Positions 20,810-49,657 of a DNA stretch of 64,000 nt are shown here, piece by piece. Numbering within the stretch: the stretch's first letter is position 1; each line of letters opens with the position of its first letter. Origin of the DNA: Saccharofermentans sp. (GTDB lineage: Bacteria > Bacillota > Clostridia > Saccharofermentanales > Saccharofermentanaceae); assembly GCA_024684815.1 (NCBI GenBank), contig JAIKWL010000065.1, forward strand, positions 25,550 to 89,549, read 5' to 3'. A model generated the notes under the pieces. The model did not search any database. It saw nothing but the letters and a program-made list of their open reading frames with translations, and had not been told where the DNA came from. The position numbers and the translations under genes were made by a program.

Positions 20810-23800
20810 TCAACCTTGTTCCGAAAGCATAAGATTAACTCGATTCTCAATTATCTCTATGACATCATCCAGAGACTTCTGACCACTGTAATATGCAGGC
20901 ATTTCCTCATTCATTATAACTAAGATTCCAGAATCCATATCCGGAACTGTAACTGCATCTGAAATCTGATCAATATAGTAATCAACGATATCTGTTGAGA
21001 TCGGAATATCTGATGCATCATAAGGGTTACGTCTGGAATTCTTCAGATCTATATAGTTCTCAAACGAAATTTTCTGAGCACTTTTAAGAACAGGGTCAAA
21101 GTAGATATTTACCTGGTTTTGATATTCGGGAGACATCATAGACATCATAAACTCCCATGCTGCATCCTGCAGAGCACAACAGCTCGTAATACCTATGCCT
21201 CTTCCACTGATAACCTCAGCATGTCCATCCGATGAAGGAAGACCTGTTATGGAATAGTTCTTATACGCTTTCCCATATAAATACACAAAAGATTCGAATG
21301 TCACACCCTCTATGATCTGCATATTTTTCATTTGCATCCAGTTTTGGTTATCATATGGCATGACACCTGGGATTGAAGCAATATACTCATTTGTTACTTT
21401 AAAGTCTTCATTATCAAGCATAAGCTTTCCATCTTTAGAGAAGGATATACTGTCAGAATTTTTCATTAACGTTCTCATCAATGCCAGATTGTCATCATAG
21501 AGAATACTCTTGCCGGCATTCCTTTCATTTATGATATTGTCATACTGATCGAAAGTTAATCCAGCCGAACCCTCGTCTATAAAAGAATTCTTTATCATTA
21601 ATGCTGTGCAATTGAAGCTGTAATCCAAGCGGTAATGCTTGCCGTCACGTCCGTTGGGTTCAGTTACAAACTCCATATAATCACCGTTATTAAGGCTTTT
21701 CTCAGATTTTATGCGCTTGGTAAGGTCAACAAGATAATCCAGACTGTTAAGTTGTGCGCTATCTGATCTGTAAATCACTATATCAGGTCCGTCTCCTTCC
21801 CTGATGTCAGACTTAAGAAGATCCACTGCGTCAGCTTCATAAGCAGTAATCAGAGTAAGGTCGTCATGGAATGCATCATTATCATAAACGCTTGTGGCAA
21901 CATCGTAGTACTTATCGGTTACTTCGATAAAGTATTTGTCTGAGTTCCTGTTAAAGTCATTGATGGCGCCATATTCAAATTTGCTGATCCAATCAATATA
22001 CGCAAGACTGAGTATCTTTTTACCATGATTGGGATTTTGAGCCGCTTTCTCCAGTTTTATAAGATGTGTAGTTGACATACCGCCCGTCGGAGACTGATCA
22101 TCAATAAAAAGCACGATAGTGTCGTCTTTAGCCCACACAACTGCGTAATCTTCAAATCTGCCAAGTATATAAGTATCGTGAAGATCAGCCATAACAGTAT
22201 CATCTTCTGTTCCGGAGATAGTTTTCGTGATCACTTTATTGTCACGGCATTCGAAAACCCCGCAATCAGGTACATAGTCCACCCAATTCAGATTATCCTT
22301 TGTTTCTGCAACTTCCATCTCAAAAGAATTCAGATCCACAGTACAGAAAAGACTTTTTCTGATACCGTTATCGGTAATCTCAGCAGTGATTGAGACTCCG
22401 TCTCCGTATTTCATTAGGTTGCCAATATAATTAACCTGAACATCATTTCCAAATTCAGGAGCAAAGAATCTCGTGTTCCCGCCTTCAACTACACAGATTT
22501 TGTACGAATTATGATCGAAGTCACCCATAGACATTAGATATACGAGCTTATCATTTACTCCGGTCATTGTAATTACTTGTGAGAACATGCTTCCATCATC
22601 AGGGAGTTCTATCGAAAACGGATTCTTCAACGTTGCATTGTCAAAATCAATTTCGTATCCGACATTAACAAGAGAATCCAATTGGGCATCATAATGATTG
22701 ATAACCGCATAATACTTATCATTCAACTTATATAGCGTCTCAGGAGCATAGAAGATGACACCCTCTCCAAAATAATCGGAAAGACGCACCTGTCCGAGCA
22801 ATTCGCCTTCATACGAATAATGTCTCAATATTGAATCGTTTGAATCCTTATTATGAATCATGAAAACAAGAATTACAGAATCCTCATCTGCAGCAAAGAA
22901 ATTGTTATTCAGATCCCAAAACTCCTTGTTCACTTCTTTCTTAATGTCGTCTGGAGTAATGACTGTTTCAGTATCATTCCACCACGGATCATTTGCAGAG
23001 ACTTCTCTGACATTTCTGGAAGTGTTTACAAAAGAACAGCTTGTAACTGTCAGTATAGCCGCCATGCTCAACGCCAGAGCCTTCCGGCTGTTATCTACAG
23101 GTCTCTTAATACTGATGATCCTCTTCTTCATCATCTCATATCCGCTCTTCATCCCGGTTGAAAGTGTAAACAGTGTTGCTGTGCTTGACTGCTGCTGGAG
23201 CATTCCAAGGAGTGTTCTGGCATAGTCTTTGGAAAAATCTTCGCCATACACCTTCATAACCTCTTCATCGCAAGCCAATTCACAATCAAATCCGGAAAGA
23301 ATAAACGCCGCCCAGATAACCGGGTTATACCAGTTAAGGAAGAGAACCAGATATCTGATAAGTACCCACAAATAATCGCTGTGCTTATAGTGACATGCTT
23401 CGTGGCAGATTACATACTCACTTACTTTCTGTAAATCATTGTCAACATAGATTTTATTGAACAGAAGGAAAGGGGTTTCTTTATGCCCGATACTATAAAT
23501 CTTTAGTCCGCTAGAAGGATCTCTACCGATATATTTCCTGTTGCGTCTGCAATACGAGATAAAACCGATATTGTACGCTATCAGAGCAGCTATAAGAACA
23601 GCAGAGACAAGATAACTGCTGTTCATTAAAACTGATTCTATCTTTTTCGTTTCACTTTGTTTTGCATTTGATACCACTGCATGTTTTTCCGGTATCGGAT
23701 CATGTTCATTGATTATCTCAGGTTCATATTGTATTTCGTGATCTGCAGTATACAGATTATCGGAGCCTTCCGATTCAGTCTGTATATCTTCAGTCACAAC

Positions 23801-24040
23801 CACAGGGGAGATACTGTCTGTTTCTTTATATGTAGCAGTTTCGCTTTTTGCAGTAAACAAGTTATTCCATATGTCTGCTACCGGAACATCAAACCTTACA
23901 AACGGCATTAATACCATATAGAGCGGAATTACAATCCAGAAAGCATACTGGTACCTTCTTCGAATCTTTCCGTTCGATAATGCTCTGATAATGATTATGC
24001 CGATAGTTAAAATCGAAATGCCGATGATGTAGCGCAACAT
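20810..24040 (-). CDS. BlaR1-type M56 metallopeptidase fused to a solute-binding-like ectodomain
   Basis: 1076 residues. The N-terminal part resembles BlaR1/MecR1: membrane helices at about 1-20, 33-50 and 143-165, then the zinc-protease motif HEACH at 213-217, the FDCELACDEEV segment and a last membrane helix near 325-340. The remaining 730 residues lie outside the cell. They hold a propeller-like or beta-rich stretch (about 360-660) and a region resembling extracellular family 1 solute-binding proteins (GDGPDIVIYRS, GLTFDQYDNII, AAWEFMMSMMSPEYQNQ). BlaR1 instead ends in a penicillin-binding domain, so the ligand here is probably not a beta-lactam. It is encoded one base after blaI-like 24042 and should cleave that repressor on stimulation. 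The ectodomain has a lipoprotein paralogue at 43624. Confidence 0.85.
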   Translation of the reverse strand: MLRYIIGISILTIGIIIIRALSNGKIRRRYQYAFWIVIPLYMVLMPFVRFDVPVADIWNNLFTAKSETATYKETDSISPVVVTEDIQTESEGSDNLYTADHEIQYEPEIINEHDPIPEKHAVVSNAKQSETKKIESVLMNSSYLVSAVLIAALIAYNIGFISYCRRNRKYIGRDPSSGLKIYSIGHKETPFLLFNKIYVDNDLQKVSEYVICHEACHYKHSDYLWVLIRYLVLFLNWYNPVIWAAFILSGFDCELACDEEVMKVYGEDFSKDYARTLLGMLQQQSSTATLFTLSTGMKSGYEMMKKRIISIKRPVDNSRKALALSMAAILTVTSCSFVNTSRNVREVSANDPWWNDTETVITPDDIKKEVNKEFWDLNNNFFAADEDSVILVFMIHNKDSNDSILRHYSYEGELLGQVRLSDYFGEGVIFYAPETLYKLNDKYYAVINHYDAQLDSLVNVGYEIDFDNATLKNPFSIELPDDGSMFSQVITMTGVNDKLVYLMSMGDFDHNSYKICVVEGGNTRFFAPEFGNDVQVNYIGNLMKYGDGVSITAEITDNGIRKSLFCTVDLNSFEMEVAETKDNLNWVDYVPDCGVFECRDNKVITKTISGTEDDTVMADLHDTYILGRFEDYAVVWAKDDTIVLFIDDQSPTGGMSTTHLIKLEKAAQNPNHGKKILSLAYIDWISKFEYGAINDFNRNSDKYFIEVTDKYYDVATSVYDNDAFHDDLTLITAYEADAVDLLKSDIREGDGPDIVIYRSDSAQLNSLDYLVDLTKRIKSEKSLNNGDYMEFVTEPNGRDGKHYRLDYSFNCTALMIKNSFIDEGSAGLTFDQYDNIINERNAGKSILYDDNLALMRTLMKNSDSISFSKDGKLMLDNEDFKVTNEYIASIPGVMPYDNQNWMQMKNMQIIEGVTFESFVYLYGKAYKNYSITGLPSSDGHAEVISGRGIGITSCCALQDAAWEFMMSMMSPEYQNQVNIYFDPVLKSAQKISFENYIDLKNSRRNPYDASDIPISTDIVDYYIDQISDAVTVPDMDSGILVIMNEEMPAYYSGQKSLDDVIEIIENRVNLMLSEQG

Positions 24041-24041
24041 A

Positions 24042-24398
24042 TCAATCCTCTTCGATTATCCTTTTAAGTTCTTCTAACTGTTCTTTAGTGAGCTTGTCTG
24101 AACACTTCAGATTTGAGATAAGTAATCCAACATTACCGCCATACACTTTATCCAGGAAAGATGTTGTCTCTTCAAGTTCAGCCTCTGTTCTATCTATAGC
24201 AGCACTGAACCACTTGGTTCTTCCTTCTTGCACAAAAGTAACTATGCCTTTTTCAACCATACGATTAAGCAAGGTTATGATCGTCTGCTTGGACCATCCG
24301 GTTGTTGTATCTAGGGTTCTTGTAAGTTCCATTAAAGTCATAGATTTATTAGCCCAAAGACAATTGACTATCTTCCATTCTGAATCTGTTAAACGCAT
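24042..24398 (-). CDS. BlaI/MecI-type transcriptional repressor
   Basis: 118 residues with the Penicillinase_R winged helix: LTDSEWKIVNCLWANKSMTLMELTRTL, WSKQTIITLLNRMVEKGIV and VQEGRTKWFSAAIDRTEAE. The C-terminal dimerisation part contains the usual protease-sensitive region. It is the cognate repressor of the M56 protein that follows one base later. A palindromic operator lies upstream at 24448. It is close in sequence to the second copy at 40447, indicating duplication. Confidence 0.93.
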   Translation of the reverse strand: MRLTDSEWKIVNCLWANKSMTLMELTRTLDTTTGWSKQTIITLLNRMVEKGIVTFVQEGRTKWFSAAIDRTEAELEETTSFLDKVYGGNVGLLISNLKCSDKLTKEQLEELKRIIEED

Positions 24399-24447
24399 TT
24401 ACAATAATTCCTCCAAAGTGGTCTACTTCTGTTTACCAATATACTAC

Positions 24448-24471
24448 GTTGGTCGACAAGAGTCAACCAAC
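24448..24471. promoter_or_regulatory. Candidate BlaI operator
   Basis: GTTGGTCGAC and GTCAACCAAC form an inverted repeat (9 of 10 positions paired) around AAGA, about 50 bases upstream of the blaI-like start. A further ACCAA half-site precedes it at about 24434. Position and symmetry fit autoregulation by the BlaI protein. Confidence 0.55.
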
Positions 24472-24555
24472 AATGCTATTATTCAGTTCAATTTTGTCCG
24501 CATATAAGAGTTATGTTCATCGATGCTCCTGTATGTTAGTGATACAATAATCCCG

Positions 24556-24777
24556 GGTGTTATCCACACGGCATAGGCGGTTACCTCTAGTTGCCTTTGA
24601 AAAAAGGTCGAGGAGGTGGTGCTGATGAGCGATTATGAAATTCTGATCGTGGTCCTGACCATTATCGCAATAGTAGTAACTTTGATCATTGAGTACATAA
24701 AAAAATGACCGCCCCTGTACCAAAAGTTGCGGTCATTATTGACATAATACTGAGGTAACCGTCTAGTGGGTAACACC
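24556..24777. repeat. Long-range inverted repeat bracketing the toxin ORF
   Basis: Upstream GGTGTTATCCAC (24556-24567) and CGGTTACCTC (24578-24587) are matched downstream by GAGGTAACCG (24752-24761) and GTGGGTAACACC (24766-24777) in reverse complement, with one mismatch. A transcript of the toxin could thus fold 5' end to 3' end, a known feature of type I toxin mRNAs that delays translation. Confidence 0.65.
24625..24708 (+). CDS. Holin-like type I toxin peptide (27 aa)
   Basis: ATG 24625 follows GAGGAGGTGG at 8 bases. The product MSDYEILIVVLTIIAIVVTL continues IIEYIKK: a short acidic start, one membrane helix and a lysine end. This is the plan of the putative holin-like toxin family (Hol_Tox) found on plasmids and mobile elements of Firmicutes. 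Upstream an extended -10 (TGATACAAT) is near 24540-24548. The stop codon lies inside a hairpin that is a strong terminator on the opposite strand. Such peptides depolarise the membrane when overproduced and are silenced by antisense RNA. Confidence 0.65.
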   Translation: MSDYEILIVVLTIIAIVVTLIIEYIKK

Positions 24778-24784
24778 TCTTTAC
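24700..24784 (-). ncRNA. Probable antisense antitoxin RNA
   Basis: On the minus strand TTGATA (24818-24813) and TATTAT (24796-24791) with a 16-base spacer predict transcription from about 24784. Arms AATGACCGC (24704-24712) and GCGGTCATT (24729-24737) form a hairpin followed on this strand by a run of seven T, giving an RNA of about 85 bases. It overlaps the 3' end of the toxin mRNA, the arrangement of txpA-RatA-type systems. Predicted from promoter and terminator only. Confidence 0.5.
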
Positions 24785-24867
24785 ATCTACATAATACCAC
24801 ACAAGACTCAATTATCAATAATTCAACTATTACAACTATATATTTACTATCAGCTATTCTGAAAATC

Positions 24868-25079
24868 ACTTCGGAACGGATATGCAAGCAACGCGTTTGT
24901 GTACCACAAACACTACTAGCATGTCAGGGGACACTTCCCCTGAGACCCCGAGGTGTTCTCATCGAACATAAAAAATGAACAATCTCCGAAATGTGATTAC
25001 AAGGGTTTCAGGGATTCCCTGACAAGCTATTTGCGCATTTGTATATACATGCGCGATGCTTGTTCGTCCGTTCCGAAGT
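24868..25079. repeat. Imperfect 28-bp inverted repeats around a 156-bp centre
   Basis: The arm at 24868-24895 begins ACTTCGGAACGGA and contains CAAGCA and CGCG; the reverse complement of 25052-25079 has the same three blocks, 23 of 28 positions identical. The centre contains smaller perfect palindromes (CAGGGGA/TCCCCTG near 24930, TCAGGGATTCCCTGA near 25010). No protein-coding gene is evident. It could be a folded RNA, a MITE-like element or part of a transfer origin. Confidence 0.5.
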
Positions 25080-25120
25080 AATATGATAACCAAAACAATG
25101 AAGTCCGTAAGCAAGTCTTA

Positions 25121-25195
25121 TTACTTCTTCCAGAAGTAACGCCTTATGACTTTTGACACTGCGCATCAAAAGTCAAGGCGCCCTTCGGGATCATT
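25121..25195 (+). other. oriT-like hairpin cluster
   Basis: Hairpin 1: TTACTTCT/AGAAGTAA (25121-25139). Hairpin 2: GACTTTTGA (25148-25156) pairs perfectly with TCAAAAGTC (25166-25174), extended by GCCTT/AAGGC. It is followed by GGCGCCCTTCGGGAT, close to the nick-region core of RSF1010/pGO1-type transfer origins as I remember it (GTGCGCCCTTACGGGAT). The nick would fall near 25180/25181. No relaxase gene is present in the window, so any transfer would need one in trans. Inference from layout and memory. Confidence 0.4.
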
Positions 25196-25205
25196 TTACG
25201 AAATA

Positions 25206-25240
25206 GACCGACAGGATGTATTATAATCCTATCGGTCTTA
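25206..25240. terminator. Hairpin terminator-like repeat
   Basis: GACCGACAGGAT (25206-25217) and ATCCTATCGGTC (25226-25237) pair with one wobble position, followed by TTATTA on the plus strand. It sits after the oriT-like region and may insulate it from the gene at 25387. Confidence 0.55.
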
Positions 25241-25386
25241 TTACATTTAAACTGATGCTATGCTTTGTCTTTGCGTAACTGCCTTATGAATACAAACCAA
25301 GATATTTATGCTATATTAACTTTTGAATTAGAACGGCATCCGCATAAGATTTTTTATGCACCGTTTCAATAAGGGAGGATTAAAAA

Positions 25387-25644
25387 ATGGAAAACAACAA
25401 CATACCTGAAGAGTACCGTCCGATCTCGATGTGGGGCTACTTCGGATATGAGATCTTATTCTCTATCCCGATCGTCGGCTTCATATGTCTTATCATTTTC
25501 GCTATAGGTGCCAAGAATGTAAACAAGAAGAACTTTGCCAGATCCTACTTCTGCTACACGATCATCTGCTTCGTAGTATTCATGGTCATACTGGCGATAG
25601 TGATGGCAACAGGCGCGATAGAAAGCATTACCGGAAGTTTCTAA
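25387..25644 (+). CDS. Small two-helix membrane protein (85 aa)
   Basis: AAGGGAGGA precedes the ATG by 7 bases. Two hydrophobic helices (about residues 20-40 and 52-75) flank a short polar loop (GAKNVNKKNFAR). The N-terminus is polar (MENNNIPEEYRPISMWGYFG). Short proteins of this layout are common in Firmicutes and lack a known function. A strong bidirectional terminator follows. Confidence 0.75.
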   Translation: MENNNIPEEYRPISMWGYFGYEILFSIPIVGFICLIIFAIGAKNVNKKNFARSYFCYTIICFVVFMVILAIVMATGAIESITGSF

Positions 25645-25667
25645 GACACCCTGAAAACACTAAAACA

Positions 25668-25704
25668 AAAGCTTATTCCCGGCGTTACGCCGGGGATAAG
25701 CTTT
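25668..25704. terminator. Bidirectional terminator between convergent genes
   Basis: AAAGCTTATTCCCGGCG pairs with CGCCGGGGATAAGCTTT with one mismatch. The repeat serves the 85-aa gene on plus and the 631-aa gene on minus, whose stop lies within it. Confidence 0.8.
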
Positions 25705-27598
25705 ATTCATCTAAGACAGTCTCGATCGTTACCTGATCGTCTTTATCAAAGTTACCGGTGATACCGTATCCGGTATTCGGAACAGCCATCGAATAGACAA
25801 CATCAAGAGATAACAGGACCAAAAGAATAAGGATAATCGGCAAAAGGATCTTCCGTTTGATCTTTCTGATCATGTTGTCGAGCAATGGTGCCAGGACATA
25901 GATGAAAGCCAGGCCGCACACACCGAATACGAATAAACCTTCTGCGCAGATGCGTCCGTTAAGATTGAGGAAATAGCCCTCGTAATTCCACCATTTTGCA
26001 TTGAATACCGTCTCAAGAAGCCATCCGCTGAAATACTCCACGGTTCCGCAGAGCGTGATCGTAGCCACGAAGAAAATAAATGGTCTTTTGCGGAACTTAT
26101 TGAGAATGACCAGAACTATCATTCCGCCAACTCCGTAGATCGGAAGCCACGGGCCGTGCAAAACGCCTCTGTTGATCAGTCTTCCCTTCATCAGGAAGTA
26201 ATACAGCAGTTCCCATGTCCAGCCGAAATTCGCGAAAATAAAAAATAAAGTAACCAGGGACAGAACAGAATAGTGTCTAAGATAATGGATGCTCTCAAGG
26301 CCCTTGATCTTGCGCTGTTCAGGAATCGGTGAGAGCCTTGAAGGATAGACAAGTCCCTTCGCCTCCTTCTCAAAGGCCAGCATCTTCATCTTGCGCGCCT
26401 CGTGATTCTCATATTCGATCTCGTCCTTGCTGTTCCACAATACAACGCCGAAGTGCTTTGCAAAGAACTTTTCTCTTTTGCCTTCAAGGCCTTCTATTGC
26501 ATACTCCGGCTTTTCGATCTCCTCAAGAACATCAGAATACGTATCAAGCAGAGTATTGGAATCCGCTCTTACAAAAAGATAATCATCGTTAAGTATCTCT
26601 GTACCGGGAATGTTCTTTTCTTTGGAATACTGTCTTATCTTTGCATAAAACTCAGAATAGCAGCATACAAAATAGGGATTCGCATAAAGAATATTGGCAA
26701 CACCCAATGTGAGAAAACCGAGCAGATACCATCCGATAAAACTGACAAACAGAGCGAACACTTTCCGCTTGTTGCCTTTCATCATCCTCCAGGACAGTTT
26801 TAACGCCTCAAAAGGTCTGACATCAGGGTTTTCCGCAATGATATAAGGAACAAGTATCAGGCCACAGTGAACTATGGGAAATCCGATGACCGTTGCCATG
26901 CCCAGGATCTCAAAGACCGTTTTCAGTGCCATTACCAACGAGGCTCTGGTCCATCTCTTCATCCTTATGAGAAACAGATACCTGGAGAACGGAACCCTCT
27001 TATATATCCTTCCTTCAAGGAATATTCGTCGGCTTGCGGCAATATAGACATTACGGACATATACCCATGAAAACGCAGCAAACATCAGGATAAGGATCGT
27101 TACAATTATTTGGGCGGCGTTCTCGGTAACAGAGAACTGTAATATGACGGAATAGATATTCGAGACGATCGTTTCATTAACCACATAGTTGATCAGCTGA
27201 TTTAATATTCCTCTTGTCCTGCCAAAGATCTCGTTAGTCTCTTTATCATAGAAAGAAACGCTGTACAAAGTATGTTTAGCGGCGGTATAAAGCGAGTCCG
27301 CATCTTCGTCGATAGTGTTATATGCTTTTTCCAGACGCTTAACATCCTGGACACCGGTGAATTCATACACTGCGTTAACCGCATCTGAAATTACCTGTCT
27401 TCTGACGCTGATAAGATTATCTGAAGTTAAGAACTCCGAGGATATGATCAAAGCAAAAAGACATGCAACAACATACATCAGATAATGATGCTTAAGATTA
27501 GTCCTAGCTTCACGTTTAAGCATTCTGCGTGAAAACACAAATCTGTCGTTACTGCTCTCCAAAAAAGAGTCACCCCCATCCAACGTCAATTCTAACAT
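25703..27598 (-). CDS. DUF975 - CmpB (ABC_trans_CmpB) fusion membrane protein
   Basis: 631 residues combining two families usually found separately. The N-terminal half (about 25-335) reads as DUF975: several membrane helices, SRRIFLEGRIYKRVPFSRYL, IIAENPDVRPFEALKLSWRMMKGNK and FIGWYLLGFLTLGVANILYANPY. After a soluble linker (about 335-455), the C-terminal half is a CmpB-type putative ABC transporter subunit (FGWTWELLYYFLMKGRLINRG, HGPWLPIYGVGG, GTVEYFSGWLLE). Function is unknown; ATP-binding partners are not nearby. Confidence 0.8.
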   Translation of the reverse strand: MLELTLDGGDSFLESSNDRFVFSRRMLKREARTNLKHHYLMYVVACLFALIISSEFLTSDNLISVRRQVISDAVNAVYEFTGVQDVKRLEKAYNTIDEDADSLYTAAKHTLYSVSFYDKETNEIFGRTRGILNQLINYVVNETIVSNIYSVILQFSVTENAAQIIVTILILMFAAFSWVYVRNVYIAASRRIFLEGRIYKRVPFSRYLFLIRMKRWTRASLVMALKTVFEILGMATVIGFPIVHCGLILVPYIIAENPDVRPFEALKLSWRMMKGNKRKVFALFVSFIGWYLLGFLTLGVANILYANPYFVCCYSEFYAKIRQYSKEKNIPGTEILNDDYLFVRADSNTLLDTYSDVLEEIEKPEYAIEGLEGKREKFFAKHFGVVLWNSKDEIEYENHEARKMKMLAFEKEAKGLVYPSRLSPIPEQRKIKGLESIHYLRHYSVLSLVTLFFIFANFGWTWELLYYFLMKGRLINRGVLHGPWLPIYGVGGMIVLVILNKFRKRPFIFFVATITLCGTVEYFSGWLLETVFNAKWWNYEGYFLNLNGRICAEGLFVFGVCGLAFIYVLAPLLDNMIRKIKRKILLPIILILLVLLSLDVVYSMAVPNTGYGITGNFDKDDQVTIETVLDE

Positions 27599-27712
27599 AA
27601 AAGAATAAAGACAAATGTTTTATATGTTCGAAAACAAAAATCTCTCACAATTAAAATAAATGATTGTGAGAGATTTAATATCAGATTATCTGAAATCGTA
27701 TTTATTTATAAA

Positions 27713-28486: not shown

Positions 28487-28540
28487 GTAGTCCACCTCAC
28501 TTAAAATATTCCACCGGAGACTTTTGTTTCTCCATTGAGG

Positions 28541-28569
28541 ATTATACAGAATCGCGCCCTGACTATTAA
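28541..28569 (-). promoter_or_regulatory. Promoter of the SDR gene
   Basis: TATAAT on the minus strand (28546-28541) with TTAATA (28569-28564) 17 bases upstream. The leader contains a small hairpin GGAGA/TCTCC before the ribosome binding site. Confidence 0.6.
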
Positions 28570-28701
28570 GTTAATTCCCTTTTATTTTTAAGCATTTTTG
28601 ACACTTCATGTACCGTTTCCATTAAGTTTTAGTCTTGTTTGCAGATATAACTCCGGTAATGATTTTCAATTCGACATATAAAAGCGACAAACTCTGACAA
28701 A

Positions 28702-28710
28702 TGGTATAAT
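28702..28710 (+). promoter_or_regulatory. Extended -10 promoter of the superoxide reductase gene
   Basis: TGGTATAAT is a perfect extended -10 element, 32 bases before the ATG at 28743. A matching -35 is weak. Confidence 0.6.
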
Positions 28711-28742
28711 GTATGTATTTATTACTATGGGAGGTATTCATT

Positions 28743-29102: not shown

Positions 29103-29122
29103 GAGCCGTCAGATTAAAAATC

Positions 29123-37529: not shown

Positions 37530-38573
37530 CTATATCTTGAATTTGGCAGATGTTTCTCTGCCGGTCTTTATCCTTTCATAAAGAGCCGGATACGTGCATG
37601 TGCAGCCTTCCGCAAGAGTCTCTTCATTTTCTTCTTTTTCTATACGGTTACCCAAAGAGAACTTCAGAGGCTTTTTGGACTCATACAGTTTTACGGATAA
37701 TATCCTGTGATATCTGGAAAGATCCATAACATAAGGAGGCGTCATGCTTATTGTTTCTATATCCTTTAAAGAGAAAGGTTCATCATTGATCTTTAATGAA
37801 GACGTTTCGAATTTCAAAGACTTCAAATCCTTTACTCCGTTCTCCCTCTCAAATATGTACTCTATTAACTTAATAACTATAAAAGTATAAACAATCGCCA
37901 ATGCAGCCATTCCTAAAACAAATGGTGCGATATCCAGCTTGTTTAAGACTAACCAGTTAAAAAAGATAACGAAGAACAATACAGTAACAGCAGCAACAAC
38001 TATCGTCAGGAGAATTAACTTCAGATCAAAAGAAGACGGTTTATTTCTTTCATAAACATCACCTTCAAAAGCTTCATATTCAATATCTCCGGTAAGCTCC
38101 TGTTTTGCGATCATGACAGCATCTGAGATCTCCTTAAACTGCTTTATCTTTATTCCGGGAAGCCCGACATAAAGGTTGGTATCAGGATCATTATCATTAT
38201 CTGCGAAAACCAGTTCATAGCGGGCTTTGCCTTTACCTGAATGATTGAAATTCGTTCCGATATAATCCTTCACGGAGTAAACAGCATTTGCATCTCCTAC
38301 TGTTATATCTACTGACTTGGAAAGAACTGTTACACTGACATCTTTTTCTTTGGCTGTATTGATTATTATTCCGACGACAGCTACAGCCAAAAACAACCAT
38401 CCGTATTCTAAGATAAACTCCATCGGATTATCTTTGCCTGAATTCAGCGCCAATAAGATCATTGCCCCGGCAAGTACACAAAGACCTATTCCGTATTTTA
38501 TTGTCAGGACTATAAAACTCTTGAGCTTTGTATGTTTTCTTTCAAATACTTTTTCCGTGACGTAAGAGGCCAT
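37530..38573 (-). CDS. Membrane protein of unknown function (347 aa)
   Basis: A basic N-terminus (YVTEKVFERKHTKLKSF) leads into two helices (about 20-65). A soluble region of about 120 residues follows (about 70-195, with IGTNFNHSGKGKARYELVF), then a second pair of helices (about 200-250) and a C-terminal soluble region with basic tail. The two halves look like a tandem of the same plan, membrane pair plus PH-like beta-rich domain; this is an impression, not a measured similarity. It lies 24 bases downstream of the second M56 gene on the same strand. Confidence 0.6.
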   Translation of the reverse strand: MASYVTEKVFERKHTKLKSFIVLTIKYGIGLCVLAGAMILLALNSGKDNPMEFILEYGWLFLAVAVVGIIINTAKEKDVSVTVLSKSVDITVGDANAVYSVKDYIGTNFNHSGKGKARYELVFADNDNDPDTNLYVGLPGIKIKQFKEISDAVMIAKQELTGDIEYEAFEGDVYERNKPSSFDLKLILLTIVVAAVTVLFFVIFFNWLVLNKLDIAPFVLGMAALAIVYTFIVIKLIEYIFERENGVKDLKSLKFETSSLKINDEPFSLKDIETISMTPPYVMDLSRYHRILSVKLYESKKPLKFSLGNRIEKEENEETLAEGCTCTYPALYERIKTGRETSAKFKI

Positions 38574-40445: not shown

Positions 40446-40446
40446 C

Positions 40447-40803
40447 CTAACCTTCCCTGATTATGTTTCTCAATTCCTCTAACTGTTCTCCGGTAAGCTG
40501 ATCCGAACCGATAAGATTTGAGATCAAGAGCCCGACATTACCTTTATAAACCTTATCAAGGAAAGAAGTTGTTTCTTCCATCTCGGCTTCTGTTCTGTCT
40601 ATGGCAGGACAAAATCTCTTGGCGCGGTCTTCCTGCACATACGTGACAGCGCCCTTTTCAGTCATGCGCTTGAGCAAAGTAATAACCGTGTTTTTTGTCC
40701 ATCCGGTATTAGGAGCAAGCTCCTTTGTAAGTTCGGTTATAGTCATGGAATTATTCTTCCAGAGACAATCAGCTATCTTCCATTCGGCATCAGATAAACG
40801 CAT
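40447..40803 (-). CDS. BlaI/MecI-type transcriptional repressor, second copy
   Basis: 118 residues, the same length as the copy at 24042 and very similar throughout (LSDAEWKIADCLWKNNSMTI, WTKNTVITLLKRMTEKGAVT, AIDRTEAEMEETTSFLDKVY, KGNVGLLISNL). It is the repressor partner of the M56-hydrolase protein. A TACAATTGTA palindrome lies 23 bases upstream of its start, the classical type of BlaI/MecI operator. Confidence 0.93.
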   Translation of the reverse strand: MRLSDAEWKIADCLWKNNSMTITELTKELAPNTGWTKNTVITLLKRMTEKGAVTYVQEDRAKRFCPAIDRTEAEMEETTSFLDKVYKGNVGLLISNLIGSDQLTGEQLEELRNIIREG

Positions 40804-40825: not shown

Positions 40826-40843
40826 GGTGTACAATTGTATACC
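40826..40843. promoter_or_regulatory. BlaI/MecI-type operator of the second pair
   Basis: GGTGTACAATTGTATACC is an 18-base palindrome with a single mismatched pair; its core TACAATTGTA is the TACA-TGTA pattern of BlaI/MecI sites. It overlaps the expected promoter of the blaI-like gene at 40803. Confidence 0.7.
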
Positions 40844-40960
40844 GTAAATATATCATTCAGGTAGACACCCGTCAACTCACCGATCGCATTCTGTATATGC
40901 GTTTCTTAAAATGTTAAAATCACTTTAGTATTAGGCTCTCGATCGATCAGGAGGACATTT

Positions 40961-42958: not shown

Positions 42959-42969
42959 AACCGGACTGA

Positions 42970-43611
42970 TCAAAGACCCATAGCTTCTTCAACCAAAGCC
43001 AGTGTCTGCTCGATACTTCTGTTCTCATCACGGAAGATGACTTTAAAACCTGAATTTAAAAGTTCATCATATGATTCCTGAGAACATATCAGCTCGAGGC
43101 CCTTTCTGTAATTCTCCAGTGCCTTTTCAGGCTCGGGTTCTTCCAGCATAAGTTTATAGAGAAACTGCTTTTCGGGATCAGGTCTGTCAAAGAATCTGCT
43201 TATAGAGATCTTCGGATCCGAAAGCAATACGACCGTATGATCCAAAGGTGCGATAGTTTTCAGTTTTTCGATGCTGATGTTTGTATCAACGAATACCGGT
43301 TTGCCCTGACTGCATATATCCGGAAGCATACGCAATTCAAGTATTCCGCATTCCTTTTTTGCACCGTCTATCCAGTCTTTATATTCCTGCGGAGTCCTTC
43401 TTATAAAATCATGCCAGTCGACAAGATCACGGGTATATGTCAGACAAGGAAATTCTTCCTTATCAAGTTCGCCGGGATAATTATCATGGTAATTCTCTTC
43501 ACATGCAATCCCGCCGTGCTTTTTTGCAAGTTCCTTGACCATTGTGGATTTTCCGGCATATGACGTACCTATAACAAAATATGCATTTTCAAAATACATA
43601 TCATTACTCAT
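42970..43611 (-). CDS. P-loop kinase-like protein
   Basis: 213 residues with Walker A GTSYAGKST near residues 14-22, and a C-terminal half rich in helices. The FVDTNISIEKLKTIAP segment (about 105-120) fits the second nucleotide-binding strand of the shikimate/adenylate kinase fold. Substrate is unknown. It is 12 bases after the convergent xylosidase stop and just downstream of the solute-binding lipoprotein gene on the same strand. Confidence 0.7.
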   Translation of the reverse strand: MSNDMYFENAYFVIGTSYAGKSTMVKELAKKHGGIACEENYHDNYPGELDKEEFPCLTYTRDLVDWHDFIRRTPQEYKDWIDGAKKECGILELRMLPDICSQGKPVFVDTNISIEKLKTIAPLDHTVVLLSDPKISISRFFDRPDPEKQFLYKLMLEEPEPEKALENYRKGLELICSQESYDELLNSGFKVIFRDENRSIEQTLALVEEAMGL

Positions 43612-43623
43612 TTCTTTTCTCCT

Positions 43624-45963
43624 TTACTTTCTCTCAGCAATGATCGTTGTTACTCTGTCCTGCAGGATCTTCAGGACCGCATCAAAGCTCTTCTGATCCA
43701 AAAGATATGGCGGTATTTCTTCTCTGATCACGACCAGTACAGCCGGATCAGCATTATCTGTTACAGACGCTGATAAAAGAACTTCTTTGTAAGAATCAGC
43801 AACATTCCCGTCAAGTTTCTGCAGCGGATTAACTTTATTATAATTCTCCAGTGCTATTTGAGCTGTGGAATCAAATGCTGCCGTACTCATAGGATTACTG
43901 TAATCCCTGGCAACCAGATCCTGTATGTCACTGCTCATACAGGTCTTTATGAATTTCCATGCTCCGTCAGCTACTGCAGAAGGAGCAGCTGATGAGATCC
44001 CTACAGAAGTGTCAATAGATATTACCGGTCCGCGCCCGTCTATCGACGGATATCCCATAAGTGTCAGACTTGAAGAGTTGTAACCGTTAACAAAAAGGAA
44101 ATCCCCAAAACTGTTATACCAACCGGTACCGTCACTTTCGTTCTCATCATAGAAACTGTCAACGACATTGTCTTTTACATAATCACATAGAGTTCTGAAT
44201 GATTCATTATCGAAGTTAACTGTCTTACCGTCTATGCAGGTATCATTCATATATGAATAAAGAGTACAGAGAACACCGAGCTGAGTTTCGTTCATCGGAT
44301 CTTTGCCGTTGCACACCTCATCAACGAATTCAATATACTGATCAAAAGTAAAGCCGGTCTGTCCTTCACTTACATTTGATTTTTTTGTTTGTATGCCTGA
44401 TACCGTAAAGCTCACCGGCATATAGAAAAGCTTGTCATCAATCTTCGCCGCATCTATGACATTTGAAAAATAATCAGCTTCATTTATTCCGTTTTTGCCT
44501 TTGATATAGCTGTTCAGATCCACAAGATATTCTTCAGACTGGATTTGACTGAAAGCAGCAGCATTGAGAACAATATCAGGCCCATTACCCGATATCATGT
44601 CCGAAGCAAGCTTATCACCAAGTTCGGAAGTACCGCTGTAATTGATCCCCATCTGATCATCGTGACTCTCGGCATTACTGAAATCATAGAAATCAGCTAC
44701 ATTAAGTTTATTTTCCAGTTGTACATAGTATTCTCCGCAAGTCTCGTTAAAAACTCTTACAGCTTCACATAACGGATATGACATTTCAAACGTGCCTGCT
44801 ATGGCAGCTGTAATGATGATCTTACCGGCATTAGGATTAGTATCGGATCTCTCAATAACTTCGATCACGGGAGTTTGTCCGCTGCCCTGATACATGGAAA
44901 CAGAATCTTCGTGCCGCGCCATATCAGCAAATACATATCTTGAATCTTCAATGGAAACAAGCTTCATTCTTCCTGCCGTGTATCTGTTGATATTACAGTT
45001 GTTATAAGAGAGAACTTCCTCCAATGTCTTTGTTTCAAAGTTAATGCATTTTACGCCGTTTTGATCTGAAATATAGTTCTTACCATCAAAGGAAGATATC
45101 CGTGTAGAATAATTAACCGTATTAAGCCATGAGTATTCCGCATCCTTATTTGCTGCTTCACCGGTCTCAAGATCCAACGAGACAAATGTCACGTCGTTTG
45201 ACAGACAGACAAGAAGTATCTCTTTTTCTGAAACAGTAATGAATCCGGAAATATATGCAATATTTGATAAAGCCGGATCAACAGAAAGATCGACTATCCT
45301 GCTGTTGCCGCCGTTACAGATCATAAATGCGTACGAGCTTCTCTTGGAGTAACGTGACACCACGTAATCGCCGACAGACCAGGTTCCTTCTATGATCATA
45401 TCACCATTCTGAACCGAATCGTCTGAGCTGCCGGTTATTTCCTTTAACTCGCCAAGAGTTCCTGTCGCAGGATCTGCACAAGCCAGATAGCATTTTTCCT
45501 TTCCGTTATCTGCTTCAAGTATCTTAAGATATACACCATCAGAACCCACAAAAACATCTTCGATATGTTTATGCTCATCAACGGAAAATGACTTACTTAT
45601 ATCAAAAGAATTGATCAGCTCTCCTTTTAGATCATAGTAATCGATGTTAGTGAAATTGTAGTCTTCGAAATTGTCTTTTTCCCAATCAAAGTCATCCGGT
45701 AATACATAAGACCCCACGGCTTTTATTACGATACCGTCTTTACAGGCTCCCAGTATCTCACTGTCGCAATAACTTGTCTTCTGACCTTTGTACTTATCGG
45801 CGAGCTCAGTCGAAGTGGAATTATACCAAACAGAATCCTTGGTTACTTTACTGACCTCTCCATGATCATTGCTTTTGCATCCGGTAAAAGATGCAGTCTC
45901 AGAAAGGATCAGCAGGCCTGAAACAATAACACTGACGATCCTGTTTATCCTGCTTCTTTTCAT
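43624..45963 (-). CDS. Solute-binding-like lipoprotein, paralogue of the M56 ectodomain
   Basis: 779 residues with a lipoprotein signal (SETASFTGC, Cys at about residue 29). The first half is beta-rich (about 40-370); the second is an extracellular family 1 solute-binding-like module (AVRVFNETCGEYYV, GNGPDIVLNAA, TGFTFDQYIEFVDEV, GAWKFIKTCMSSDIQ). Order and local motifs match residues 360-1076 of the M56 fusion at 20810, including the end LVVIREEIPPYLLDQKSFD versus LVIMNEEMPAYYSGQKSLD. No permease genes are adjacent, so transport is not obvious; a sensing role is possible. Confidence 0.8.
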   Translation of the reverse strand: MKRSRINRIVSVIVSGLLILSETASFTGCKSNDHGEVSKVTKDSVWYNSTSTELADKYKGQKTSYCDSEILGACKDGIVIKAVGSYVLPDDFDWEKDNFEDYNFTNIDYYDLKGELINSFDISKSFSVDEHKHIEDVFVGSDGVYLKILEADNGKEKCYLACADPATGTLGELKEITGSSDDSVQNGDMIIEGTWSVGDYVVSRYSKRSSYAFMICNGGNSRIVDLSVDPALSNIAYISGFITVSEKEILLVCLSNDVTFVSLDLETGEAANKDAEYSWLNTVNYSTRISSFDGKNYISDQNGVKCINFETKTLEEVLSYNNCNINRYTAGRMKLVSIEDSRYVFADMARHEDSVSMYQGSGQTPVIEVIERSDTNPNAGKIIITAAIAGTFEMSYPLCEAVRVFNETCGEYYVQLENKLNVADFYDFSNAESHDDQMGINYSGTSELGDKLASDMISGNGPDIVLNAAAFSQIQSEEYLVDLNSYIKGKNGINEADYFSNVIDAAKIDDKLFYMPVSFTVSGIQTKKSNVSEGQTGFTFDQYIEFVDEVCNGKDPMNETQLGVLCTLYSYMNDTCIDGKTVNFDNESFRTLCDYVKDNVVDSFYDENESDGTGWYNSFGDFLFVNGYNSSSLTLMGYPSIDGRGPVISIDTSVGISSAAPSAVADGAWKFIKTCMSSDIQDLVARDYSNPMSTAAFDSTAQIALENYNKVNPLQKLDGNVADSYKEVLLSASVTDNADPAVLVVIREEIPPYLLDQKSFDAVLKILQDRVTTIIAERK

Positions 45964-46165
45964 ACAAATTACCTCTCAATCAGATATTTAATCCAGGGTA
46001 ACCGAACGAAACACAAGCTATGTTTTCTTCATAGATCTCGCTATTTCCCGTATATTATTGTCCCCATAAACATGACAGAATAATACACAAAATAAAGCAG
46101 TACTGCAATGGTCACATAACCATAATCAACACAAGGATATTAAAGTTAAGGAACTGACAAAGTTT

Positions 46166-46510
46166 CTATCCCTGATAAATTTTATTCGATTCAATTTCCA
46201 TGTATTCCGATGTTCCTACTGTGACATTCCAAAGCGCCTGATAAGTAGAAGAAAAGATGAATCTGTACATAAGGCCATCGTCACCCAGATAGTATAAAGC
46301 ATCACCCTGGACCGGATTATCTTTTTCGAATGCCGCTATTCCGAATTTATCGATCAGTTTAGCTTTTGACATCCTGAAATAGATTCCGTTTAACTCAAAG
46401 GCAGTTTTGTTATCTTCCTGCATTTTTACAGCTACAATAAGATCATCATCTTTTACATAATCGAAACGAGCATAATCATCATTATCTATACACACGTAGA
46501 AATACGGCAT
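46166..46510 (-). CDS. Hypothetical protein, possibly the 3' part of a frameshifted gene
   Basis: 114 residues from ATG 46510, acidic and rich in aromatic residues (PYFYVCIDNDDYARFDYVKD). There is no clear ribosome binding site. The same frame is open upstream without a start codon back to about 46558 and reads as plausible protein (KFWYASDSKDGNE), beginning where the membrane protein 46549 stops in another frame. Either the two were one gene, or translation is coupled. Confidence 0.5.
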   Translation of the reverse strand: MPYFYVCIDNDDYARFDYVKDDDLIVAVKMQEDNKTAFELNGIYFRMSKAKLIDKFGIAAFEKDNPVQGDALYYLGDDGLMYRFIFSSTYQALWNVTVGTSEYMEIESNKIYQG

Positions 46511-46548
46511 CTCATTCCCGTCTTTTGAATCACTGGCATACCAGAACT

Positions 46549-46791
46549 TTATTTCCTTGCCACGCCTTCAAATGCCGGAACCATAGCATTAATCAGCATC
46601 CCAAAGGCACCGTATACAATTCCGATAAACGCGATCAGACTAAGCAGACTGCCGCAGATTATTCCTGCAATACTTTTCTTTTTTCCTTTTGCCGTTCTTA
46701 TTATCGATACAATAAACAATACTATTGCCGCAACCAATATAATTGCGCTGACTGTCACTTCAATTAATAATGCTGTATCCTTCATGATCAT
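46549..46791 (-). CDS. Small two-helix membrane protein (80 aa)
   Basis: Two hydrophobic helices (about residues 8-32 and 40-72) separated by a basic loop RTAKGKKKS. It ends GVARK just where the next reading frame takes over. The Gly-rich second helix with short polar ends is typical of DUF4190-type small membrane domains. See the frameshift note for 46166. Confidence 0.6.
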   Translation of the reverse strand: MIMKDTALLIEVTVSAIILVAAIVLFIVSIIRTAKGKKKSIAGIICGSLLSLIAFIGIVYGAFGMLINAMVPAFEGVARK

Positions 46792-46827
46792 TTACCCCAC
46801 ACAACAATTATTTCACAAAACCTGTCA

Positions 46828-47352
46828 TCAATAATCAGGACCCGTTTTCTCTGAGATAATATCAAAACGGCAGGAACCGTCAGGATATACAAGAACAAAA
46901 TAATAGCACTCTATATCGTCATCATAACCGCTGTCTTCAAGCGGCAGCAGATCTTCAGAAACCTGATAACGCATTACCGGTTTGTTTTTTATGTCAGCAG
47001 CTTCTTCTGCTTCTCCCTGACCTAAAGCATTTGTAACCGCATAAGAAAACCCATCGGGAAGTGATTCTATCAGCTTCTCTTCATTCCTGTATTTGCGGCT
47101 TTCTAAAGACTTGTAATTATGTATTCCTTTAAATTCAACGATACTCATTCTGTCAACGCATGAAGCATAGGACGGAAGCTGAGCAGCTCTGCAGTAATAA
47201 TCTTTACTGATCTCGTCAGCCGTATGTATATATCTGACGATACAAACGAAAATATATATTCCTAATGCAGAAAACACAATACCAAAGGCTAAAGCGATCG
47301 TAAAACAGCCGGATCTTGTAAAGCCTTTCTGTCTGTTATATTCCCCATTCAT
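46828..47352 (-). CDS. Membrane-anchored protein of unknown function (174 aa)
   Basis: ATG 47352 is preferred over 47418 because AAGGGGGAA lies 8 bases upstream. A basic N-terminus (YNRQKGFTRSG) precedes one membrane helix (about residues 15-42); the remaining 130 residues are extracytoplasmic, with KSLESRKYRNEEKLIESL and a C-terminal beta-rich segment (YYFVLVYPDGSCRFDIIS). I do not recognise it. Paired operator-like boxes upstream match those of the DUF2975 operon. Confidence 0.6.
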   Translation of the reverse strand: MNGEYNRQKGFTRSGCFTIALAFGIVFSALGIYIFVCIVRYIHTADEISKDYYCRAAQLPSYASCVDRMSIVEFKGIHNYKSLESRKYRNEEKLIESLPDGFSYAVTNALGQGEAEEAADIKNKPVMRYQVSEDLLPLEDSGYDDDIECYYFVLVYPDGSCRFDIISEKTGPDY

Positions 47353-47426
47353 GTCTATTTCCCCCTTCGCAATTATCCCTTCTGATGTGATATTACCATA
47401 TGCAATATTGATTTGCAATCATTTTT

Positions 47427-47462
47427 TATTGTTATTCGATATTTTTATATTGGTTTTCGAGA
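47427..47462. promoter_or_regulatory. Paired 15-bp boxes, second occurrence
   Basis: TATTGTTATTCGATA (47427-47441) and TATTGGTTTTCGAGA (47448-47462) start 21 bases apart, the same sequence type and spacing as at 37423-37458. They lie between divergent genes (47352 minus and 47534 plus) and could serve either. Confidence 0.55.
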
Positions 47463-47533
47463 ATTATCAATTGCCAACTTTTTTACTGCCAATCTGTTAT
47501 AGTTGAATTGCAGATCATATACCGGGAGATACT

Positions 47534-48388
47534 ATGAAAAGATTACTTGGAAAAACCGCGATAGTAACAGGCGCCAACTCAGGTATGGGCATGGCTACGG
47601 CACGTTCACTGCTTGATGAGGGTGCTACCGTCGTAATGCTCTGCAGAAGTGAGAAACGCGGAAAGGAAGCATACAAAAAACTCTTATCTGACGGCAACAG
47701 CAGAACATATCTTATTCTCGCGGATCTCGGAGATTACGAATCCATCAGGCAATTTGTTCAGCAATTTAAATCGATGTTTCAAAGGCTCGACATCCTTGTA
47801 AACAATGCCGGCTTCATTTCACTGGACAGACAGGAAACCCAAGAAGGTCTGGAACGTCAGTTCGGTATCAATCACATAGGACATTTTCTTCTTACCACTT
47901 CCCTTCTTGATGTTATGGGTAACGGTTCACGCATAGTTAACGTCGCTTCAGGCGCGCATAAGACAGGCAAGATACATTTTGATGATATTAATCTTCATAA
48001 AGGCTTCAATGTAATCAAAGCATATTCGCAGAGCAAACTTGCAAATGTGCTTTTCACCCGTGAACTCGCAAGACGCGTTGCTGACAGAGGAATAACTGTC
48101 AATTGCTGTCATCCCGGTGCCGTCGCGACCAATATCGGGATCGACCGCGAGACCGGGTTCGGCAAGACCGTTACGGGCCTTCTTAAACCTTTTTTCCAGA
48201 CACCTGAAGAAGGTGCAAGAACTGCCATTTTCCTTGCAACAGATGAATCCGTAAAAGACATCACAGGTGAGTACTTCTATAAGTGTAAGATAGCAAAGTC
48301 CTCAAAACGCTCGAAAGATATGGAGTTAGCAAAAAAGCTCTTTGAATTCAGCGAAGAACTGGTATCCCGGCCAACACGATCCGCATGA
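47534..48388 (+). CDS. SDR oxidoreductase, retinol-dehydrogenase-like
   Basis: 284 residues. Motifs: TGANSGMGMATARSL cofactor loop, DIDLxS-like ILADLGDYESIRQF, NNAGFISL, Ser in NVASGAHK, catalytic YSQSK, and CCHPGAVATNIG. The extended C-terminus and the CR-motif after the glycine loop match the retinol dehydrogenase/WW-domain-oxidoreductase-like SDRs rather than FabG. The biological substrate in bacteria is unknown. GGGAG lies 6 bases before the ATG. Confidence 0.82.
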   Translation: MKRLLGKTAIVTGANSGMGMATARSLLDEGATVVMLCRSEKRGKEAYKKLLSDGNSRTYLILADLGDYESIRQFVQQFKSMFQRLDILVNNAGFISLDRQETQEGLERQFGINHIGHFLLTTSLLDVMGNGSRIVNVASGAHKTGKIHFDDINLHKGFNVIKAYSQSKLANVLFTRELARRVADRGITVNCCHPGAVATNIGIDRETGFGKTVTGLLKPFFQTPEEGARTAIFLATDESVKDITGEYFYKCKIAKSSKRSKDMELAKKLFEFSEELVSRPTRSA

Positions 48389-48397
48389 GGAAGCACT

Positions 48398-48754
48398 TTA
48401 CTTTTGCTTTCCTCCGATACCCCAGTTTTCCAGAGGTGGCTCGTTAATAACGATAAATACATTTGAAGGATCTATCGAAAGACTGGTATTCAGTTTGTTC
48501 GTTATACTTTCGATCAATGTCATTTTCTGTTCCTTGGATCTTCCGGGAAAAAGCGTTAACTCAATGATCATGAAATCATCCGTCTTAAATGAGGGAAATT
48601 CAAAATCAGATCTGTCAAACTCAGCAATACGCTGGAACCTGTCCCAATCCTCAATTCCGATCGAATCTATAAGTCCCAGGTGAATACAATCAAGCACTGT
48701 CTTCTTATATTCCGGTGACTTTCCTTTCAACATAGCTACTTCAACTAATGGCAT
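48398..48754 (-). CDS. Tautomerase family protein
   Basis: 118 residues starting MPLVEVAMLKGKSPEYKK; Pro2 is the catalytic base of the tautomerase superfamily. The repeat-like second half (MIIELTLFPGRSKEQKMTLIE) gives the fused double beta-alpha-beta form (Tautomerase_2 type). Substrate is unknown. It is convergent with the SDR and lies downstream of the hydrolase lipoprotein gene. Confidence 0.8.
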   Translation of the reverse strand: MPLVEVAMLKGKSPEYKKTVLDCIHLGLIDSIGIEDWDRFQRIAEFDRSDFEFPSFKTDDFMIIELTLFPGRSKEQKMTLIESITNKLNTSLSIDPSNVFIVINEPPLENWGIGGKQK

Positions 48755-48787
48755 TTTGAAACCCCGTTAAATGTAGATTATTAAGAC

Positions 48788-49657
48788 TTACCACTCATTA
48801 ATGATCTCAGATGCTTTTTCAGACATCGCACTTCCAAACTCACCGCTCATTTGATGATCTGCACCATCTATGGTAATCAGTTTGGCATCAGGAAGTGTCT
48901 CGCCAGCTTTGTCATAGAAATGAGGAAAATCATTAAGATCAGGCCTTTCACCCGTACCTTTGATTATCAGAACAGGAATATTGCAGCCTGAAAGGAAAGA
49001 ATAGAAATCGTTCGGAAGCTTCTGATCGTTTTCAAATTTCATGGTCTCAGTATGCTGGAAACTCGGCTCGACAAGTATCATTCCCTTAACCTTATCCTGC
49101 CTTAATATACCTGCATATATCGTTGCAAGTCCGCCCATGCTGTGCCCGAAAAGATATAAGCCTGACTGATCTATTTCCTGAAAGGACTTTAGTTCATCCA
49201 TCACAGCAAAGATATCCAGCATCTGATCATAAACAAAATCCCCCAGATAATCAGGTTCTTTATAAGGCATGGGAACCTTGTTATTTGTCGGACTGATCTC
49301 TACTACGGCATATCCGTTATCAACAAAGTTCTTTGTCTTTCCGGAATAGATACCTAAAGTCGCGTATAAGCCTCCGGTGACGATTATCGTTTTAAACGGT
49401 CCGTCGCCTTCAGGAAGCGTGATCTTTGATCTGATGAGATTTCCGTCACGGTAGAAGTTCACCTTTTTTGTCAGGCCTTTGTCTTCCTCTATCTCAGGAT
49501 CCGAAACAGCGTAATCGGTCTTCACTTCGAAAGGAACCGTTGTGGATTCCGTTATCTCCGTTGTAATAACAGCATCTGAAGTCTGAACTGCAGCATTGCT
49601 GCACGATGTGAGCATGACTGCAAATATAATGATCGATACAAAGGCTTTAGTTTTCAT
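48788..49657 (-). CDS. Alpha/beta-hydrolase lipoprotein, paralogue of the M56 ectodomain
   Basis: 289 residues from ATG 49657 (GGAG 8 bases upstream; the earlier ATG 49669 has none). Lipoprotein signal with lipobox LTSC. The hydrolase shows DGPFKTIIVTGGLYAT oxyanion region, nucleophile Ser in FGHSMGG, MILVEPSFQHTE and a catalytic His in DGADHQMSG. Region by region it matches the ectodomain of the M56 protein at 38598 (GEGPFKTIV.CGSY, GHSVGG, MILVEPYMP), so the two share an origin. Substrate is unknown; perhaps esters on wall or plant polymers. Confidence 0.85.
   Translation of the reverse strand: MKTKAFVSIIIFAVMLTSCSNAAVQTSDAVITTEITESTTVPFEVKTDYAVSDPEIEEDKGLTKKVNFYRDGNLIRSKITLPEGDGPFKTIIVTGGLYATLGIYSGKTKNFVDNGYAVVEISPTNNKVPMPYKEPDYLGDFVYDQMLDIFAVMDELKSFQEIDQSGLYLFGHSMGGLATIYAGILRQDKVKGMILVEPSFQHTETMKFENDQKLPNDFYSFLSGCNIPVLIIKGTGERPDLNDFPHFYDKAGETLPDAKLITIDGADHQMSGEFGSAMSEKASEIINEW

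Follow-up and report, generated by a model that had tools for sequence, protein, structure and literature searches.

Two BlaI-M56 operons of a Saccharofermentans-type gut bacterium with lipoprotein-related ectodomains in place of a penicillin sensor

BlaR1, known for its role in sensing penicillin, has a sensor that works by slow deacylation. A stretch of 64,000 nucleotides from a Saccharofermentans-type gut metagenome-assembled genome (2.78 Mb, 76% complete; contig C32), referred to here as the window, carries two operons that each encode a BlaI-type repressor and a BlaR1-like receptor of the M56 metalloprotease family with a different C-terminal domain, which raises the question of what such receptors sense, where their sensors came from and which genes they control. 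Both operons, claimed already in a first-pass annotation of this DNA, were found at 24398-20810 and 40803-38598 by matches to Pfam Penicillinase_R and Peptidase_M56, and both run leftward, from BlaI P0002 to P0001 and from BlaI P0004 through P0003 to P0007. It is considered rather probable (about 0.72) that both loci encode BlaI-M56 signalling systems with the working principle of BlaI-BlaR1 but other sensors, including a ligand-driven regulon. The features of the two operons are as follows (O1 and O2, the two operator copies; SBP, solute-binding protein).

20810-24040, minus strand: P0001, M56 protease receptor with SBP-type ectodomain (Pfam Peptidase_M56 and SBP_bac_8)
24042-24398, minus strand: P0002, BlaI-type repressor (Pfam Penicillinase_R, E=5.2e-26)
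24420-24468, minus strand: promoter of P0002, with O1 (24451-24468) over the -35 element TTGACT, a 17-bp spacer, the -10 element TATATT and O2 (24420-24437)
37530-38573, minus strand: P0007, 347 amino acids (aa), no assigned family, 24 bp behind P0003
38598-40445, minus strand: P0003, M56 protease receptor with alpha/beta-hydrolase-type ectodomain lacking the catalytic His (Pfam, motifs)
40447-40803, minus strand: P0004, BlaI-type repressor (Pfam Penicillinase_R, E=7.2e-28)
40826-40877, minus strand: promoter of P0004, with O1 (40860-40877, one mismatch) over the -35 element TTGACG, a 17-bp spacer, the -10 element TATATT and O2 (40826-40843)

The membrane part of both receptors corresponds to that of BlaR1/MecR1, with four hydrophobic segments, the HExxH...E metalloprotease motif between membrane helices and an ectodomain at the C-terminus. 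The protease module of P0001 comprises residues 1-338 (HExxH at 213, lipobox Cys335) and is followed by the ectodomain at about 346-1076; the landmarks of P0003 are HExxH at 231 and lipobox Cys353. The HExxH motif and the subsequent E/D positions are invariant across 15 aligned M56 receptors, and a PDB search with a profile of the membrane part gave BlaR1 (8exp, 8exs) as the sole matches. The N-terminal parts of the two receptors, described previously as nearly identical, share no more than 44% identity over 369 columns; the repressors P0002 and P0004 are 71% identical. Both repressors have the winged-helix Penicillinase_R domain of the BlaI/MecI/CopY proteins and are encoded adjacent to the receptor, as in the BlaR1/MecR1-BlaI/MecI systems, although here the BlaI gene precedes the receptor gene. 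P0007, for which no Pfam family scored above its cut-off, is probably co-transcribed with P0003.

It is the ectodomain that places both proteins outside BlaR1 proper, since a penicillin sensor was tested for and not found. Pfam and NCBIfam searches revealed no penicillin-binding sensor in either P0001 or P0003, the BlaR1 models covering the membrane part alone, and neither protein carries the SxxK, YxN-type and KTG motifs of a C-terminal class D beta-lactamase-like sensor, whereas the control BlaR1s display STYK and KTG. Of the ectodomain types proposed at first, a beta-rich plus solute-binding-like module and an alpha/beta hydrolase, the solute-binding-like part is borne out by the SBP_bac_8 match in P0001 and the hydrolase by alpha/beta hydrolase models in P0003. 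For the SBP-type proteins, the profile of the C-terminal half matches CbpC and trehalose/maltose-binding protein, from which they differ by some 300-350 extra residues on the N-terminal side and, in the receptors, by fusion to a protease, while the hydrolase profile, representing the ectodomains together with the window lipoprotein P0006, matches ferulic acid, cinnamoyl and chlorogenic acid esterases, EST1E among them. These matches and the missing sensor support the first-pass view that a ligand other than penicillin is sensed, which, as judged from sequence, is probably the case.

The same annotation held that both ectodomains recur in the window as separate lipoproteins, and alignments agree with this for both pairs.

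43624-45963, minus strand: P0005, free SBP-type lipoprotein without upstream operator (alignment, tree, operator scan)
48788-49669, minus strand: P0006, free hydrolase lipoprotein with Ser177 and His272 present and without upstream operator (alignment, operator scan)

P0001 and P0005 are 26% identical over 676 aligned columns (E=2e-42), P0003 and P0006 38% over 178 (E=6e-32); the open reading frame (ORF) of the latter continues past 49657, the end originally given to this region. P0005 itself belongs to the SBP family (SBP_bac_8, 36.7 bits; cut-off, 27). A permease of the L325 type, the one type looked for at the loci searched, was found within three genes of none of the 34 free SBP rows, nor was such a partner seen for P0005, as an ATP-binding cassette (ABC) solute-binding lipoprotein would have. 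The homology behind the proposed pairing of receptors and window lipoproteins is real, but the link by neighbourhood is weak. The source genome has 19 free SBP-type lipoproteins of about 800 aa each (a count obtained by merging of 25 matches), 43624 among them; the best match to P0005 within that genome comes from a further free lipoprotein (299 bits), the P0001 ectodomain reaching only 145.5 bits; and for the P0003 ectodomain a second free hydrolase, on contig C51, is a slightly closer relative than 48788 (41% versus 36%).

Closer relatives are found across species. The P0001 ectodomain has its closest relatives outside its own receptor type among free lipoproteins from other species (66%, 48% and 47%); in the gene of the first of these (L032; genome G032, contig C12), the matching region contains an in-frame TAG. 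P0005 is closest to the receptor ectodomains of three other genomes (G082, G023 and G076; 52-54%), is 49% identical to a free protein behind the BlaI-M56 pair L120, and appears orthologue-like to receptor ectodomains in other species. Swapping is seen in the receptor L108, which joins a P0001-type membrane part (68%) to a P0005-type ectodomain (54%), and in L094, which resembles P0001 by 71% in the membrane part and by 25% in the ectodomain. In a tree of 64 SBP proteins (14 fused, 50 free; retained from 79 rows after removal of near-copies and of domains under 600 aa), the fused/free label requires 10 changes, at least nine of them forced by branches with support of 95% or more. P0005 is grouped there with three fused proteins and one free protein (support 100), and in an earlier version of the tree the fused and free copies of a single operon (L118) were sisters (support 98). 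The hydrolase ectodomains, by comparison, form one side of a single branch (support 90; 59 rows less two near-copies), and they occur on two M56 types merely 25-31% alike locally. Both trees are quick searches with long branches flagged. Modular receptors with swapped ectodomains, as first proposed, thus agree with the homology and the fused/free exchange. The idea that the free lipoproteins were ancestors of the sensors stands as repeated exchange, the changes having been counted undirected, as fused to free or free to fused.

M56 proteins are present in 44 of the 59 genomes of the genus. The 126 distinct receptors (reduced from 153 M56 genes, with loci L168 and L170-L177 excluded, from the part of the M56 matches that was fetched and by a motif rule that overlooked at least one, L116) were grouped by ectodomain into 13 recurring clusters, with 22 singletons left over, and include 22 SBP-type, 15 hydrolase-type, 14 NlpC/P60-type and seven beta-helix ectodomains. 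BlaI was recognised for 100 of the 126 and an adjacent BlaI-sized gene for 105, the misses including P0001 itself, whose repressor gene was lost by simple ORF calling. Among the genes that follow the receptors, representatives have matches to transglutaminase core, GH3, PF00144, Acyl_transf_3 or SBP models. Relatives with the same receptor type are named Saccharofermentans sp., Clostridiales, Ruminococcaceae, Lachnospiraceae and Clostridia bacterium, many of them from ruminant or horse gut. The source genome has a third BlaI-M56 pair (L123; contig C56, 13192-17755), the NlpC/P60 ectodomain of which looks dead; an SBP-type lipoprotein gene on the same strand immediately precedes its BlaI gene. 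An M56 protein of 1310 aa with a very long ectodomain is plasmid-encoded in Pusillibacter faecalis (L366, 2962-6894).

The enzyme-derived ectodomains of the genus have lost catalytic residues. Both Ser and His, corresponding to Ser177 and His272 of P0006, are present in all 44 free hydrolases and in none of the 15 fused ones (near-copies being included in both counts): His is lost from all 15 and Ser from 14, where Asp, Glu, Gln, His or Gly is found instead. P0003 is the sole fused row retaining Ser and, lacking His, would not qualify as an esterase, unlike P0006 and the feruloyl, cinnamoyl and chlorogenic acid esterases which it resembles. The catalytic Cys of NlpC/P60 is likewise absent from all 14 fused genes and present in 32 of 33 free rows, the remaining one having Ala (10 free rows were found by a motif rule, two of them being one gene, and extended to 33 through a profile built from these). 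Since the fused hydrolases retain many core positions while the catalytic ones are lost, a change of use, not decay, is indicated.

The classical operator TACANNTGTA, which stands twice, 35 bp apart, at the control locus L364, was found once in the window (expected 0.76) and in 13 of 100 genus promoters. The wider palindrome GGTNNACNNNNGTNNACC, derived by eye from the promoters of related BlaI genes, has one copy over the -35 element and a second just beyond -10. Allowing at most one mismatch, it occurs in 42 of 52 related BlaI promoters and as a pair in 25 of them, versus 0 in shuffled sequences. All four sites in the window lie at the two BlaI promoters (expected 0.55; none of 100 shuffles reached four). 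Both repressor genes would thus carry, by sequence, the palindromic operator at their own promoter that is characteristic of BlaI, in two copies as in the BlaR1/MecR1 systems though wider. The genome contains seven exact sites, versus none for the reversed control pattern; three lie at BlaI promoters, and the other four form two pairs at a divergent promoter of contig C62. One-mismatch sites were fewer than those of the control (22 versus 37), which makes weak single sites meaningless.

The C62 promoter lies between a gene for an S12-family lipoprotein (PF00144) on one side and, on the other, genes for an Acyl_transf_3 protein and two BPD_transp_1 permeases; the closest PDB relatives of the S12 protein include penicillin-binding proteins and DD-carboxypeptidases. 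In the seven of the searched genomes that encode a P0003-type receptor, the matches listed include 38 exact sites versus two for the control, and the operator pair precedes the S12 gene in six of the seven, PF00144 being recognised in all six; one site of the pair carries a mismatch in G005. An operator pair between divergent permease genes adjoins BlaI-M56 in G005 and G033, and the permeases therefore remain linked to the operator despite the altered gene order. No copy of GGTNNACNNNNGTNNACC was found upstream of 43624 or 48788 in the window scan, for which reason these lipoproteins were rejected as BlaI targets and are probably not BlaI output. The first-pass proposal that the free lipoproteins are the regulated output accordingly fails for the window genes, the operators standing at both BlaI promoters and at C62, but it holds for some operons elsewhere, where an SBP-type gene lies directly behind the receptor (9 of 126).

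Upon the computed architecture, homologies, catalytic losses, fused/free exchanges and operator sites, a mechanism can be outlined by analogy with BlaR1, for which PMC9834060 and PMC7593790 describe activation of the protease by ligand and cleavage of BlaI. Without ligand, a BlaI dimer on the two palindromes would repress its own operon, and P0004 would additionally repress the second locus on C62. Ligand binding to the ectodomain would activate the HExxH protease, BlaI would be cleaved and the regulon would open. The ectodomains would have been drawn from the pool of surface lipoproteins, that of P0001 being a carbohydrate-type SBP and that of P0003 a dead relative of feruloyl/cinnamoyl-type esterases, which may bind an ester but is not expected to convert it. 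P0004 and P0003 are predicted to control a regulon other than that of BlaR1/MecR1, made up of the S12 lipoprotein (beta-lactamase/DD-peptidase-like), an OafA-like acyltransferase and two ABC permeases of the sugar type. Kinship points loosely to the ligand: the cue is likely, as a first guess, an esterified plant or wall glycan fragment, in view of the SBP and esterase relatedness and of permeases, acyltransferase and S12 hydrolase as output.

Several observations weigh against this interpretation. Other-type BlaI promoters have a GGTNNACNNNNGTNNACC site in 9 of 48 cases and a pair in none; genus-wide, 83 exact sites among the matches listed compare with 44 for the control, so that isolated operator sites mean little; and for G025, which has a P0003-type receptor, no operator pair before an S12 gene was found among the matches listed. 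The S. aureus BlaR1 cuts BlaI at Asn-Phe, as stated in PMC9834060, and the aligned residues are here Asn-Leu, which leaves BlaI cleavage by these receptors plausible only. Outside the genus, the NlpC/P60 ectodomain of L177 (6347-7954; Cys motif) and the M23 ectodomain of L351 (1471-3108) have intact-looking catalytic motifs; the proposition that fused ectodomains of enzyme origin are always dead was therefore rejected, enzyme death being no general property of M56 receptors. Finally, S12 and transglutaminase-like outputs are also compatible with wall stress.

Wall stress is indeed the main rival to an esterified-glycan cue. The receptors would then sense cell-wall stress, perhaps still antibiotics, through ectodomains that bind muropeptides or wall-active compounds, and the S12, transglutaminase-like and acyltransferase outputs would remodel the wall. 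The PDB relatives of the S12 output and the NlpC/P60-derived sensors of sister receptors fit such a role, as does the peptidoglycan fragment described in PMC3305447 as a BlaI coactivator in B. licheniformis. The missing match to a penicillin-binding sensor, the kinship of the ectodomains to SBPs and esterases, the sugar-type permeases under the shared operator and the GH3 output of other hydrolase-type receptors speak against it, and this explanation is regarded as possible but doubtful. That 43624 and 48788 partner the receptors, whether as regulated output or by competing for the ligand, with their closeness being functional, would agree with the ectodomain homology and with the SBP-type genes directly behind nine receptors. 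It is improbable given the lack of upstream operators, the 19 free SBP genes spread across the genome and the closer free homologue of the P0003 ectodomain on C51; moreover, the other listed hydrolase-type receptor loci show no free hydrolase of the same cluster nearby. Least probable, the ectodomains could be dispensable passengers on a protease that answers membrane or cytoplasmic cues. Three receptors of 304-307 aa practically without an ectodomain do exist (L281-L283), but the frames of the 22 SBP-type and 15 hydrolase-type ectodomains are open, barring contig-end cuts, and the retention of many core positions alongside catalytic loss in the fused hydrolases points to a change of use.

The preferred reading, BlaI-BlaR1-like signalling with other sensors, leaves room for a further feature at the junction of the two parts. 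A lipobox terminates the last hydrophobic segment of 82 of the 122 receptors considered (four of the 126, in which fewer than 60 aa follow the protease, were left out, three without ectodomain and one cut by a contig end), whereas the background, a lipobox pattern before HExxH in the membrane part, is 6 of 126. The lipobox is present in 22 of 22 SBP-type and 13 of 14 NlpC/P60-type receptors and is absent from two control BlaR1s. A fused lipoprotein supplying its own signal peptide was considered and rejected, the fourth segment and lipobox being alike across different ectodomains; they are for this reason part of the protease module, the swap point lying just behind the Cys. In S. aureus BlaR1, as reported in PMC9834060, the type I signal peptidase SpsB cleaves between the last helix and the sensor, which is shed. 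By analogy, the junction lipobox would be predicted to allow cleavage by signal peptidase II, with the sensor left lipid-anchored. A split receptor is conceivable on this basis, in which the M56 protease serves the genus as a general chassis for lipoproteins grafted behind the lipobox and the cut, lipid-anchored sensor acts in trans; this is tentative and rather unlikely, and just as tentative is the corresponding origin of the sensors from mature surface lipoproteins, both sugar binders and enzymes that later lost their catalytic residues. Evidence against an essential role of the lipobox is its presence in only three of 15 hydrolase-type receptors, in 0 of 10 of cluster E4, in 0 of 5 of E7 and in 10 of 39 receptors of a wider sample (one of the ten from the genus; one of the 39 cut before the site). 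If true, the split receptor would be a lipid-anchored counterpart of SpsB shedding and would explain the frequent fused/free interchange; the processing step implied by the lipobox can be checked by a single Western blot.

Two further observations concern the surroundings. About 8.7 kb of the window (16837-25572), comprising the P0001 operon and a serine recombinase gene (18695-20419), are 94.3% identical to a locus of another genome (L126, G079), the next matching stretch being 76.6% identical; the P0001 operon may have undergone horizontal movement. Upstream of P0006, positions 49833-52871 encode a protein of 1012 aa with a divergent InlB B-repeat match.

No publication describing M56 receptors with exchanged lipoprotein ectodomains, dead-enzyme sensors or a lipobox was found in a search with thin coverage of subscription papers and preprints. 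A single gut genus presents one protease-repressor chassis with 13 recurring ectodomain clusters, traceable lipoprotein exchange, a conserved operator and a conserved target in trans, which suggests that new sensors can be fitted to a BlaR1-type signalling device. The dead-enzyme ectodomains indicate a route to a sensor distinct from the slow-deacylation sensor of BlaR1. Recruitment of sensor domains becomes testable in this system, as does the question of whether nutrients or wall fragments, and not drugs, are what many M56 systems sense.

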